A stretch of DNA of 64,000 nucleotides from Pandoraea capi (GTDB lineage Bacteria > Pseudomonadota > Gammaproteobacteria > Burkholderiales > Burkholderiaceae): assembly GCF_902459735.1 (NCBI RefSeq), contig NZ_CABPRV010000001.1:434001-498000 (forward strand). Direction: 5' to 3'. The notes beneath the pieces were generated by a model. That model was not told the DNA's origin and ran no database searches. It worked only from the letters and a program-made list of their open reading frames with translations. The translations under genes were made by a program, and so were the position numbers. Positions 52,123-62,522 of the stretch are shown here, piece after piece. The stretch's first letter is position 1. Every line of letters starts with the position of its first letter.

Positions 52123-53391
52123 ATGCAAACGAACCTCGCAGAATTCCTCCGTCAGACACCGGACGGCGACGAAGCCGAAGCCATTCTCCGCAAATGCGTG
52201 CATTGCGGATTCTGTACCGCGACCTGCCCCACGTATCAGTTGCTCGGCGACGAGCTCGACGGCCCGCGCGGACGCATCTATCTCATCAAGCAGATGGTCG
52301 AAGGCCAGAGCGTGACGCGCGAGACGCAGCGTCACCTGGACCGTTGCCTGACTTGCCGCAGTTGCGAATCGACCTGCCCGTCGGGCGTGCAATACGGCCG
52401 TCTGGCCGACATTGGCCGCCGTCACATCGATGCCAAGGTCGGCCGCCCCGCCCGTGAACGCGCCGTGCGCTGGACACTCGCCCACGTGCTGCCCAACCGC
52501 ACGCTGTTCTCGCCCGCGCTGCGCCTCGGTCAGCAGTTCCGTGGACTGCTGCCGCGCGCCTTGCGCGAGAAAGTGCCGCACCGCCAGCGTTCGGGGAGCT
52601 GGCCGCAGACGAAACACACGCGCCGCATGCTGATGCTCGAAGGCTGCGTGCAGCCGTCCATGCTGCCCAACGTCAACAAGGCAACCGCGCGCGTGCTCGA
52701 CGCCCTCGGCATCGAGATGCTGCGCCCCTCGTCGGCCGGATGCTGTGGCGCCATTCGTCTGCATCTGAACTATCACGACGACGGGCTCGACGACATTCGC
52801 CGCAACATCGACGCCTGGTGGCCCGAGATCGAAGCGGGCGCCGAGGCGATCGTGATCAATGCGTCCGGTTGCGGCGCGACGGTCAAGGAGTACGGCCATC
52901 TGCTGCGCCACGATTCCCAGTACGCAGGCAAGGCGCAACGCGTCTCTGAACTCGCGAAAGACCTGTCGGAAATCCTGCTCGACAATCTCGAAGCGCTGCA
53001 AAAGCGTGTGCCGAATCATAAGAACAGCAAGAACGGCAAGGCCGGCAAGATCGCCTATCACCCGCCCTGCACGTTGCAACACGGCCAGCAGTTGAAGGGC
53101 GTGGTCGAGAAGGTGCTCGCCGGTGTGGGGGTGAGCGTCATGCTGCCGCAGGACAGTCACATCTGCTGCGGCTCGGCAGGCACCTATTCCGTCACCCAGC
53201 CGGAACTGTCCCATCAACTGCGCGATGCCAAGTGGAAGTCGCTCGACGCGCTCGATCCCGAACTCGTCGTGTCGGCCAACGTCGGCTGCATCTGCCATTT
53301 GCAGGCGACCGCCAAGGGCGAACACGCCCGCGACCACGCGCCGGTGCAGCATTGGGTCGAACTGCTCGACCGGATGATCGCATCGGCCTGA
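52123..53391 (+). CDS. glcF: Glycolate oxidase iron-sulfur subunit GlcF
   Basis: GlcF passes electrons from the flavin subunits to the respiratory chain. The 422-residue protein carries two [4Fe-4S] motifs: CVHCGFCTATCPTY near residues 25-38 and CLTCRSCESTCPSGVQYG near 76-93. Two cysteine-rich CCG domains follow (EGCVQPSM..., SAGCCGAI and HPPCTLQHG, HICCGSAGTY). It begins 18 bp after glcE and completes glcDEF. No malate synthase or glcG follows. Confidence 0.97.
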   Translation: MQTNLAEFLRQTPDGDEAEAILRKCVHCGFCTATCPTYQLLGDELDGPRGRIYLIKQMVEGQSVTRETQRHLDRCLTCRSCESTCPSGVQYGRLADIGRRHIDAKVGRPARERAVRWTLAHVLPNRTLFSPALRLGQQFRGLLPRALREKVPHRQRSGSWPQTKHTRRMLMLEGCVQPSMLPNVNKATARVLDALGIEMLRPSSAGCCGAIRLHLNYHDDGLDDIRRNIDAWWPEIEAGAEAIVINASGCGATVKEYGHLLRHDSQYAGKAQRVSELAKDLSEILLDNLEALQKRVPNHKNSKNGKAGKIAYHPPCTLQHGQQLKGVVEKVLAGVGVSVMLPQDSHICCGSAGTYSVTQPELSHQLRDAKWKSLDALDPELVVSANVGCICHLQATAKGEHARDHAPVQHWVELLDRMIASA

Positions 53392-53443: not shown

Positions 53444-53476
53444 GATTGATTGTCCCGATGATCGGGACAATCAATC
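53444..53476. promoter_or_regulatory. Perfect 33-bp palindrome upstream of doxX
   Basis: The two 16-base arms, GATTGATTGTCCCGAT and its exact complement, meet at a single G. There is no T run, so it is not a typical terminator. The centre (53460) lies about 65 bases before the start predicted from a TAGAAT element at 53513-53518, the place where LysR-type activators bind. Confidence 0.8.
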
Positions 53477-53512
53477 CCTCCCCCGCCCGTTTATCTGTAC
53501 GATCCCGCTCCC

Positions 53513-53518
53513 TAGAAT
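53513..53518 (+). promoter_or_regulatory. -10 element for doxX
   Basis: TAGAAT is one mismatch from consensus. The -35 region (around 53490) is poor, as expected of a promoter that needs an activator. The leader to the doxX ATG would be about 85 bases. Confidence 0.5.
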
Positions 53519-53610
53519 CGGGGCTAAGTCAGTCGTCGGCGTCGTTGAAGACGCCGCACGGCTGAGCCGACCCTTAGCCCGTACTACCGATTCCCTCACC
53601 GGAGCCCGTC

Positions 53611-54015
53611 ATGATCGATACCAAAACTGCCCCGTACGCCGCCCTGCTGCTGCGCGTCTCGCTGGGTATCCTGTTCCTCGCCCACCTGTCGCTCAAGGTG
53701 TTCGTCTTCACCATTCCCGGCTTCGTCGGCTTCATGGGCTCGCTAGGTCTGCCGCCGGTGCTCGCCTATGTCACGATGGCGCTTGAGCTGATCGGCGGGC
53801 TGATGCTGATCACCGGGTTCTATGCACGCTGGGCCGCCCTGCCGCTCGCCGCGCTGATGCTCGGTACCATCGTCTCGGTGCATGGCCACAACGGCTGGTT
53901 GTTCACCAACAAGGGCGGCGGCTGGGAATTCCCGGCGTTCTGGCTCGTCGGCCTGCTGTCGGTCGCCTTGCTGGGCGATGGCGCCTTCGCCATTCGCCGC
54001 GCTCGCGCCGAGTGA
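53611..54015 (+). CDS. DoxX-family membrane protein
   Basis: The 134-residue protein has four membrane helices and the DoxX pattern LLRVSLGILFLAHLSLKVF, then VTMALELIGGLMLITGFYARWAALPL, and WEFPAFWLVGLLSVALLGDGAFAI. DoxX-like proteins are linked to redox and thiol stress or to quinone chemistry in several bacteria, but their activity is poorly defined. It is the first gene of doxX-dioxygenase-LysR, behind the 33-bp palindrome. Confidence 0.9.
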   Translation: MIDTKTAPYAALLLRVSLGILFLAHLSLKVFVFTIPGFVGFMGSLGLPPVLAYVTMALELIGGLMLITGFYARWAALPLAALMLGTIVSVHGHNGWLFTNKGGGWEFPAFWLVGLLSVALLGDGAFAIRRARAE

Positions 54016-54044
54016 TCCAGGCCGATGCCATCGCCCCTTCATTG

Positions 54045-54065
54045 CCCCGTCAGGGGATGACGGGG
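54045..54065 (+). other. Stem-loop between doxX and the dioxygenase gene
   Basis: The arms CCCCGTC and GACGGGG enclose a 7-base loop in the 134-base gap. There is no T run, so it may modulate mRNA stability between the two genes rather than terminate. Confidence 0.4.
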
Positions 54066-54149
54066 TGATGGCGATGCCAGTCCGTCGTTACCGCTGATTC
54101 GCGACGTCATGTCGCAACGTCGATTCGCTGTTTTGCAGGAGTGATTGCC

Positions 54150-54977
54150 ATGTCTGCCCTTCCGACCCTCTTCGTCTCCCACGGCTCGCCGCTGCTCGCG
54201 GTCGATCCGGGCCGCACCGGCCCGTTGCTGACGGCGCTGGGGCGTGCGGTGCCGCGTCCCAAGGAAATTCTCGTGATTTCCCCGCATTGGTCGACGCCCG
54301 CACCGCGCGTGGGTAGCCTCGCGCAGCAACGCACGATCCACGATTTCGGCGGTTTCCCGCGCGAACTCTACGAACTGGAATATCCGGCGCCGGGCGCGCC
54401 GGCGCTGGCCGAGCGCACGGTGCAACGCCTGCGCGACGTCGGACTGCCAGCGGTGACCGACGATCAATGGGGACTCGATCATGGCGCATGGGTGCCGTTG
54501 AGCTATCTGTTCCCGGACGCCGATATCCCCGTCACGCAGTTGTCGCTCCAGCGGCACATGCGTCCGGAATATCAGTATCGGCTCGGGCAAACGCTAGCTC
54601 CGCTCGCCGACGACGGCGTGCTGATCGTGGCGTCCGGCAGCTTCACGCACAATCTGCATGAGGTGTTCCGCGCGCCGTCGGAGGATCGCGCCGAAGCGCC
54701 GTATCTGGCCGAATTCGTCGCCTGGTTCACCGAGCATCTGGCGAAGATGGATCTCGACGCGCTGTTCGACTACCGGGCACGCGCGCCGCACGCCGAGCGC
54801 GCCCATCCGACCGACGAGCACCTGCTGCCGATCTACATCGCGATGGGCGCGGCCGACAATGCGCTCAGCCAGACGCACTTCGACACCGGCTCGACCTACG
54901 GCGCGCTGCGCATGGACGCCTTTGCCTTCGGCAACGCGGCGCCGTCGCTCGCGCGCGCAAACGCGCTGGCACAATAG
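54150..54977 (+). CDS. LigB/DODA-type extradiol dioxygenase family protein
   Basis: The 275-residue protein belongs to the class III extradiol dioxygenase family that includes plant DOPA dioxygenase and E. coli YgiD. The likely metal ligands are His in FVSHGSPLLAV (residue 12), ISPHW (near 46) and SGSFTHNLHEV (near 168). GLDHGAWVPL near residue 108 is also typical. AGGAG lies 9 bases before the ATG at 54150. Whether it opens aromatic rings or oxidises another phenolic is not known. The doxX-dioxygenase-LysR neighbourhood recurs in proteobacteria in my recollection. Confidence 0.9.
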   Translation: MSALPTLFVSHGSPLLAVDPGRTGPLLTALGRAVPRPKEILVISPHWSTPAPRVGSLAQQRTIHDFGGFPRELYELEYPAPGAPALAERTVQRLRDVGLPAVTDDQWGLDHGAWVPLSYLFPDADIPVTQLSLQRHMRPEYQYRLGQTLAPLADDGVLIVASGSFTHNLHEVFRAPSEDRAEAPYLAEFVAWFTEHLAKMDLDALFDYRARAPHAERAHPTDEHLLPIYIAMGAADNALSQTHFDTGSTYGALRMDAFAFGNAAPSLARANALAQ

Positions 54978-55064
54978 CGACAATGACAGCGACGGCGGAC
55001 GTGGGTTGTCCGCCATCGCTGTCGTGCCATCTCATCGCACGACTCAGAGGAGCATCGCCCCGGC

Positions 55065-56012
55065 ATGAACAAACTTCGCGAGATCGAGTGCTTCATCGCC
55101 GTGGTCGAATCGGGCAGCTTCGTGAAGGCGGCCGATTCGTTGGGCATCTCGAAGACGGCCGTCTCGCGCTACGTTGCCGACCTCGAAGCGCGTCTGGGCA
55201 CGCGCCTGCTTCAGCGCACCACGCGACGCCTGTCGCTGACCGAGCCCGGCCAACGTTATGTCGAGCGCTGCCGCCAGATCCTCGCGGAGCTGGACGAAGC
55301 CGACGCCATGGCTGGCGAGCAGGACGGCGAGCCCGCCGGCGCGCTACGCATCAACGCGCCCCACACCTTCGGCGTGCTGCATCTCGCGCCTCTCTGGCCC
55401 ACGTTTCTCTCGCAGTTCCCGCAGGTCTCCCTGGACATCACGCTGAGCGACCGGCTCGTCGATATCGTCGACGAAGGTTACGACCTCGCCATCCGCATCT
55501 CACGCCTGCCGGATTCGTCCCTTGTGCATCGGCGGCTGGCCGGCACCCGCTTGCTGCTATGCGCATCACCGGGCTATCTCGCGCAGCACGGCACACCGGC
55601 GCATCCCAGCGAACTCACCCGTCACGAGACCGTCGGCTACAGCAACTTCCTGCACCGCCGCGAATGGCATTTCGACGGTCCGGACGGCCCCGTCTCCGTA
55701 CAGACACATGCCCGGCTGATTGCCGACAATGGCGACACGTGCGTGGCGGCGGCCATTGCGGGCAGCGGCATCATCCTGCAACCGGCGTTTCTGGTGCAGG
55801 ACGCCGTTCGCGACGGTCGCCTCGTCGAATTCCTGCCCGAGTACACGCAGGGTGAGCGCGGCATCTATGTGGTCTACCCGTCGCGCAAGTACCTGAGTGC
55901 GAAGGTCCGCGCGATGATCGACTTCCTCGTCGAGGCGTTCGCCATGCCCGGCTGGCTGGCGCTGGACCGGCCTGTCGCAAACCTGCCTGCATCCACCGCG
56001 AAAGCCCCTTGA
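55065..56012 (+). CDS. LysR-family transcriptional regulator
   Basis: The 315-residue protein has the LysR N-terminal HTH (LREIECFIAVVESGSFVKAA, then ISKTAVSRYVADLEARLG) and the periplasmic-binding-like ligand domain from about residue 90. It sits 87 bp after the dioxygenase gene on the same strand, with GAGGAG before the ATG. In this arrangement the regulator commonly controls the adjacent genes. The 33-bp palindrome before doxX is the best candidate for its site, although the T-N11-A core of LysR sites is not diagnostic here. Confidence 0.93.
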   Translation: MNKLREIECFIAVVESGSFVKAADSLGISKTAVSRYVADLEARLGTRLLQRTTRRLSLTEPGQRYVERCRQILAELDEADAMAGEQDGEPAGALRINAPHTFGVLHLAPLWPTFLSQFPQVSLDITLSDRLVDIVDEGYDLAIRISRLPDSSLVHRRLAGTRLLLCASPGYLAQHGTPAHPSELTRHETVGYSNFLHRREWHFDGPDGPVSVQTHARLIADNGDTCVAAAIAGSGIILQPAFLVQDAVRDGRLVEFLPEYTQGERGIYVVYPSRKYLSAKVRAMIDFLVEAFAMPGWLALDRPVANLPASTAKAP

Positions 56013-62488: not shown

Positions 62489-62522
62489 AAAAACGGCAAG
62501 GCGCGAAGCCTTGCCGTTTTTT
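62489..62522. terminator. Bidirectional terminator between the NlpD-like gene and opgH
   Basis: The arms AAAAACGGCAAGGC and GCCTTGCCGTTTTT pair over 14 bases around a 5-base loop, with T runs on each strand. It ends both converging transcripts. Confidence 0.93.

Follow-up and report, generated by a model that had tools for sequence, protein, structure and literature searches.

A palindrome ahead of a doxX–dioxygenase–lysR module

The window analysed here (the whole 64-kb stretch of Pandoraea capi DNA) contains a 33-bp palindrome that lies about 50 bp past the stop codon of a glcF homologue and ahead of a module of three genes, which is followed in turn by the gene for a CNNM/CorC-type protein (Table 1). 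The identities originally proposed for the first two products, a DoxX membrane protein and a LigB/DODA-type dioxygenase, were borne out by Pfam (DoxX, 1.4e-19; LigB, 9e-36). The DoxX protein matched the HvfX model under that model's cut-off. The dioxygenase aligned with a PDB chain named 4,5-DOPA dioxygenase extradiol (9.9e-59); its score against the 4,5-DOPA extradiol dioxygenase model NF007914 was 201.9 bits, below the equivalog cut-off of 233, and by sequence it belongs to the wider LigB family. The third product combines an N-terminal helix-turn-helix (Pfam HTH_1, 5.1e-22) with a C-terminal LysR_substrate domain (1.2e-44), the architecture of a LysR-type regulator. Its best NCBIfam score was to the YafC model NF040888 (239.2 bits, equivalog cut-off 470). 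Because the best NCBIfam models fall below their cut-offs, we do not name the dioxygenase and the LysR protein more closely. The original prediction had placed lysR three genes downstream; its position can be refined to that of third gene in doxX-dioxygenase-lysR.

Both gaps inside the module contain inverted repeats. Between doxX and the dioxygenase gene there is a long imperfect hairpin (−53.4 kcal/mol, z −2.45 for the intergenic region as a whole), a possible processing or attenuation element, and between the dioxygenase gene and lysR a hairpin of 16 bp that holds one mismatch (−37.3 kcal/mol, z −1.92, again for the whole region), which may limit read-through into lysR. A terminator pattern was found at neither hairpin.

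Table 1. Features of the locus, in window coordinates.
Feature	Position	Strand	Remarks
glcF homologue	52123-53391		upstream of the palindrome
33-bp palindrome	53444..53476	.	candidate LysR recognition binding site (RBS); centre 53460, at about -65; arms 53444-53459 and 53461-53476
Conserved part of the RBS	53449..53471	.	ATTGTCCC 53449-53456; variable 7-bp core 53457-53463; GGGACAAT 53464-53471
Right half and flank, GGGACAATCAATCCC	53464..53478	+	exact in 26/27 close Pandoraea promoters
TTTATCTGTACGAT	53490..53503	+	probable activation binding site over the -35 position; TTTATCT and ACGAT in 27/27 close Pandoraea promoters
-10 TAGAAT, doxX promoter	53513..53518	+	exact in 26/27 close Pandoraea promoters
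Predicted transcription start	53525..53526	+	7 bp past the -10
doxX	53611..54015	+	DoxX-family membrane protein, 134 aa
Hairpin, doxX/dioxygenase gap	54026-54073		
Dioxygenase gene	54150..54977	+	LigB/DODA-type extradiol dioxygenase, 275 aa from ATG
Hairpin, dioxygenase/lysR gap	54985-55023		
lysR	55065..56012	+	LysR-type regulator, 315 aa; third gene of the module; proposed palindrome binder

The palindrome is exact and exceeds chance

When recomputed, the arms of the palindrome were 16 nt each and 100% complementary around a single central base, exactly as first described. No other perfect palindrome in the 64-kb window has arms of at least 16 with 9 or fewer bases between them, and this one is also the longest among those with such a gap. 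Shuffling the window 20 times with dinucleotides preserved never produced a perfect arm above 12 (longest arms 9–12), and in 100 shuffles the 25-bp centre of the palindrome had no match with up to three mismatches, in agreement with the earlier view that the repeat is beyond chance. Further perfect inverted repeats in the window lie at 62489 (14-bp arms, 5-base gap) and 45608 (12-bp arms, 3-base gap). Searches at the palindrome found no terminator pattern and no match to the sigma-70 consensus promoter, and no T run follows it, as had been noted from the start.

Within its own 5.85-Mb genome, the half-sites in the form ATTGTCCC-N7-GGGACAAT have a single exact copy. Ten further places carry the pattern, all with three mismatches; the reversed control pattern gave four such places, and an N5-core variant, used as a spacing control, gave five places with three mismatches each. 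In 200 genomes drawn evenly from the order, the exact N7 pattern turned up nowhere but in the own genome. The exact letters are therefore peculiar to the genus, and it is the relaxed layout that travels.

The site is kept before doxX in 31 of 32 Pandoraea genomes

With up to two mismatches allowed, the N7 pattern occurred in 31 of the 32 Pandoraea genomes, the own genome included, compared with 2/32 for the reversed control. Only G194 lacked it, a genome of 1.2 Mb in which LysR had no match at the cut-off used (E at most 1e-75). The search for the arms upstream of the orthologous module, which the original prediction had proposed as a check, hence comes out in its favour. A doxX and a dioxygenase gene lie downstream of the site in all 31 genomes, and lysR comes next in 23 of them (L084-L105 and the window); in the remaining eight the fetched stretch stops short of the lysR position.

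The unit conserved in the genus is ATTRTCCC-N7-GGGAYAAT together with its right-hand flank. In the 27 closest Pandoraea promoters, the mean information was 1.86 bits for the left half-site and 1.97 for the right, and 0.51 for the 7-bp core; the left outer arm is partly kept (0.86 bits). Of the three possible core pairs, a mean of 0.96 was matched in the 27 close sites, which is about the chance level. Because the core varies and pairs no better than this, the perfect 33-mer gives an exaggerated picture of the functional symmetry: on these alignments, what the window holds is a conserved operator whose core happens to pair, and its perfection is partly luck.

An inverted repeat in this position could also work at the RNA level, as a terminator or as a processing or stability hairpin ending the glc genes. 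The RNA fold of the stretch gives a 15-bp hairpin (−24.2 kcal/mol, z −6.67), and it sits close behind glcF. However, besides the missing T run, perfect 13-bp arms occur in just 14 of the 31 sites (perfect 8-bp arms in 16), with the left outer arm decaying while the right one stays fixed. Furthermore, four of the 31 sites, those of P. terrae and of three genomes with about 65% DoxX identity, are kept with no glcF match upstream in the fetched stretch, indicating that the site belongs to doxX. Nor would a hairpin explain why TTTATC and the -10 keep their distance from the site. For the lack of a T run, the decay of the left outer arm and the retention of the site without glcF we rejected an RNA role, which we hold to be very improbable.

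A second element and the -10 stand at fixed distances from the dyad

TTTATC begins exactly 18 bp after the dyad, and TAGAAT begins 23 bp after the start of TTTATC, with 17 bp separating the two. The corresponding parts of the 27 closest promoters carried a mean of 1.82 bits for columns 41-54, which hold the TTTATC element, and 1.96 for the -10; the spacer before TTTATC carried 1.09, the stretch from TTTATC to the -10 1.49 and the region past the -10 0.99. Since the -10 lies at one fixed and conserved offset, the dyad centre would lie at about -65 and TTTATC at -35. This agrees with the earlier estimate that the palindrome centre precedes the start implied by TAGAAT by about 65 bp (53460, with +1 predicted near 53525). 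LysR recognition sites usually sit at -65. The description of the -35 region as simply poor needs amending, as it overlooked TTTATC, which is probably an activation site; also overlooked were the variable core and the divergent lysR that, in most relatives, has the site at its own start.

The symmetric box of the palindrome is T-N13-A, running from T53453 to A53467, and does not follow the classical T-N11-A. An excerpt of a paper on LysR regulators names the box variants T-N10-A, T-N12-A and, for IlvY, T-N13-A, and sets out a model of recognition and activation sites with one tetramer lying over both (PMC12609908). Because N10, N12 and N13 variants are described in that excerpt, we do not take T-N13-A as excluding a LysR operator. 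The weaker second site near -35, in fixed phase, that characterises LysR operators is present as TTTAT at the 18-bp spacing in 31/31 Pandoraea sites. Together, the conserved dyad, the 18-bp spacing and the fixed -10 fit a LysR recognition site with an activation site, and not an RNA hairpin or terminator.

The same layout accompanies many relatives of this LysR protein outside the genus

Searching 399 genomes of the order with the LysR protein (E at most 1e-75) yielded 82 matches beyond the own genome. The scored set comprised 64 relatives: 58 of the best 59 of these 82 (L139 came without upstream DNA), together with six loci that a doxX search had supplied (L028, L030, L037, L038, L039 and L041). 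Upstream regions were scored by a rule derived from Pandoraea, ATTRTCCC-N7-GGGAYAAT-N18-TTTATC, with a maximum of 22, and a composite was called where at most one of 200 mononucleotide shuffles reached the score. A composite was found beside 40 of the 64 relatives, so that the dyad lies by lysR or its target, as in LysR operators; it accompanied 28 of the 36 relatives whose lysR diverges from a dioxygenase or doxX gene, and 12 of the other 28. The order itself contributes 37 of the 40, from 20 of its families (some genomes give two), and three further loci make up the rest. In 36 of these 40 loci no more than about 15 bp separates the site from the lysR start. At the 36 divergent loci the mean best score was 16.97 of 22 at spacing 18, 12.83–14.89 at 26 other spacings and 11.62 in shuffles; spacing 18 reached the maximum in 32 of the 36.

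Certain columns of the 40 outside sites belong to the selection rule, namely T at column 4 (40/40), A at column 18 (38/40) and TTTATC at columns 41-46. Other regularities lie outside it. T at column 26, the column of 53475, occurs in 35/40, as in Pandoraea, and TANNNT at columns 64-69 occurs in 17/40, compared with at most 1/40 at each of 63 other offsets. There is also a weak preference for C and then A at columns 75-76 (26/40 and 20/40).

Several loci show how the arrangement varies. The betaproteobacterial MAG L038 has a divergent lysR (54%), and ATTATCCC-N7-GGGATAAA lies in the gap between it and doxX-dioxygenase. Two loci with a non-divergent lysR have a site before the target gene: G178, whose gene order is that of Pandoraea, carries one before doxX (17 of 22) with TACAGT at the -10 offset, and G410 carries one between lysR and the dioxygenase gene (18 of 22); both were scored without shuffles. 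Six other loci of 8–10 kb scanned in the same way (L122-L126, L143) had no place scoring at least 15.

The threshold was missed by 24 of the 64 upstream regions. In eight of these misses lysR diverges from doxX or a dioxygenase gene (L037, L039, L074, L075, L080, L083, L129, L156), and no composite was found at L128 or L131, the two scored relatives that belong to the window's family but not to its genus. The exact ATTGTCCC precedes doxX in none of 18 non-Pandoraea doxX loci (L027-L044), and other palindromes precede doxX in L029, L031, L032 and L034-L036, whose LysR proteins are 26–35% identical and lie outside the scored set. The window's own lysR start has no such site (best 11 of 16), nor has the upstream region of E. 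coli yafC a composite (best 13 of 22).

We also asked which of the first 62 LysR residues covary with the half-sites. For each of four half-site positions the top residue was 30, 29, 31 and 35, respectively, relatedness being uncorrected. Among the six best residues per position, 12 of 24 fell at 28-36, which we take as the recognition helix, and 12 of 24 elsewhere (e.g. 46, 50 and 12), again with relatedness uncorrected.

A probable LysR switch for the doxX-dioxygenase operon

Comparison of these genomes bears out the site, its spacing, the -10 and their association with this LysR group and its targets. We propose that the palindrome is the recognition site of the neighbouring LysR protein, which together with an activation site at -35 would serve to activate the doxX-dioxygenase operon, and we put the probability of this reading at roughly 0.9. 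The original prediction of a LysR operator for doxX-dioxygenase is thereby supported by the 31/32 genus genomes and by the 40/64 LysR relatives. The LysR protein would hold the palindrome with high affinity as its recognition binding site, presumably as a tetramer with one dimer on the ATTGTCCC-N7-GGGACAAT dyad at -65 and the other on TTTATC at -35; the 41 bp between the starts of the two elements correspond to about four helical turns. On binding an inducer, LysR would then activate the TAGAAT promoter of doxX-dioxygenase, with which lysR may be co-transcribed. The operon itself probably removes quinone- or catechol-like compounds.

Activation by LysR has to be weighed against the possibility that the protein mainly represses doxX here, or that TTTATC is a mere weak -35. 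In favour of these alternatives, TTTATC occupies the exact position of a -35, with 17 bp between it and the -10; LysR proteins are able to act both ways; and a symmetric activation site would have a second half, for which no conservation was seen (in columns 49 to 63, none is above the limit for listing). Yet TTTATC is nearly invariant across families while being far from TTGACA, and it resembles the TTATC of the half-site ATTATCCC. Additionally, the lack of a sigma-70 consensus match at the doxX promoter is what would be expected of a promoter needing an activator. We regard repression or a plain weak -35 as unlikely.

A same-layout promoter precedes a rubredoxin gene

The own genome holds a second promoter of this layout, at G000:C1:685536-685582 with two mismatches (L163, L170), which precedes a gene with a rubredoxin domain, divergent from an EamA transporter gene. 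The rubredoxin-type site occurs also in L106, from position 1980, and in its relatives. A non-doxX site of the same layout is present in 26 of the 32 genus genomes; the 19 of these that were fetched all lie before a rubredoxin gene and have TACAAT or TAGAAT at the -10 offset. Two other rubredoxin-like matches of the own genome (L171, L172) have no such site. Using tblastn at 1e-5, no LysR relative was found near the rubredoxin site in seven stretches of 3–4 kb from other Pandoraea (L048, L106-L109, L112, L113). In the own genome the composite, taken as a slightly degenerate pattern, occurs at one exact place, at one with two mismatches and at six with three (the reversed control gave none), and on these counts we rejected a global regulator.

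The rubredoxin promoter bears on whether the palindrome could instead be the operator of a different regulator of doxX, such as a paralogous LysR protein or a repressor from some other family. As no LysR relative adjoins it in those seven stretches, some regulator would act on the layout from a distance; a first look at the own genome gives 166 candidate LysR-like genes, and pirin-like genes in some Pandoraea are preceded by related but different sites. On the other hand, the layout adjoins relatives of this particular LysR protein in 20 families of the order and at three further loci, and searches with the genes of the window as queries revealed no other regulator that constantly accompanies the module. 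We consider control by a different regulator improbable, and the neighbouring LysR protein the preferred candidate.

Likely function and nearest known systems

Read from their translations, the divergent partners of site-bearing LysR genes include FMN-dependent azoreductase-like proteins (L144, L150, L158), NADPH-dependent FMN reductase-like proteins (L136, L148) and NADP-binding oxidoreductase-like proteins (L061, L081). Off this theme are a transporter-like protein (L133), a cytochrome b561-like protein (L138) and short or unrelated frames (L134, L145, L149). The gene company hints at a quinone or catechol response as the likeliest function. We tentatively suggest a broader reading, in which one LysR group would run a quinone/catechol-electrophile detoxification regulon through one rigid promoter layout (a T-N13-A dyad, 18 bp, TTTATC at -35 and the -10 23 bp on) in 20 families and at three further loci, as a Gram-negative counterpart of the Bacillus cat/mhq response. 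Such a regulon would comprise DoxX, the DODA-type dioxygenase, azoreductase-like and FMN-reductase-like enzymes and, in Pandoraea, the rubredoxin with its divergent EamA transporter.

The arrangement shares with classical LysR operators the dyad, the second element near -35 and the adjacent lysR gene, but has T-N13-A in place of T-N11-A and lysR third in the cluster in place of a divergent lysR. The second-best solved structure for the LysR protein was 3hhg (1.6e-49), which we take to be CrgA; likewise, we assume CatD of Bacillus subtilis to be a DoxX-family protein. According to an excerpt of one report, CrgA of Neisseria binds the crgA/mdaB promoter region and uses T-N11-A, and CrgA of Pseudomonas uses mirror repeats (PMC6422896); as described there, both differ from the window LysR protein in box type and target genes. 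The catDE operon of B. subtilis consists of two genes, both acting in catechol detoxification, and encodes an extradiol catechol dioxygenase; an excerpt of its description names the repressors CatR, YodB and Fur and no LysR protein, whereas the window operon is paired with one (PMC6212828). CatE is a catechol 2,3-dioxygenase, in contrast to the LigB/DODA-type enzyme of the window. By analogy, and as far as these excerpts describe them, Bacillus catDE and Neisseria crgA/mdaB would be the nearest functional parallels.

Judging from the comparison, which supports it well, the switch is very probably ordinary in kind, a LysR-type recognition site with an activation site, and it leaves ideas on how LysR regulators work unchanged. 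Its value is that a doxX-dioxygenase operon now has concrete candidates for operator and regulator, and that a sequence rule (half-sites, 18-bp spacing, TTTATC and -10) lets the targets of a large LysR group be read from genomes. As far as literature searches went, this group is seemingly little studied: among open-licence PMC articles we found no paper on LysR with DoxX, and none on DoxX with quinones or a dioxygenase.

Related dyads elsewhere in Pandoraea

Dyads with two mismatches to the doxX half-sites, and no TTTATC at the 18-bp spacing, were seen in L110 and L111; in L110 a gene for an IclR-family regulator lies near the dyad. Related dyads of the form ATTGTC..-N7-..GACAAT, with ATTGT or GTTGT replacing TTTAT, occur in L114, L115, L117, L118 and L119. 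They precede pirin/quercetinase-like genes (confirmed by Pfam in L115 and L119), and the dyad of L114 adjoins a LysR gene of 41% identity. These dyads are perhaps the operator of a sister LysR protein.
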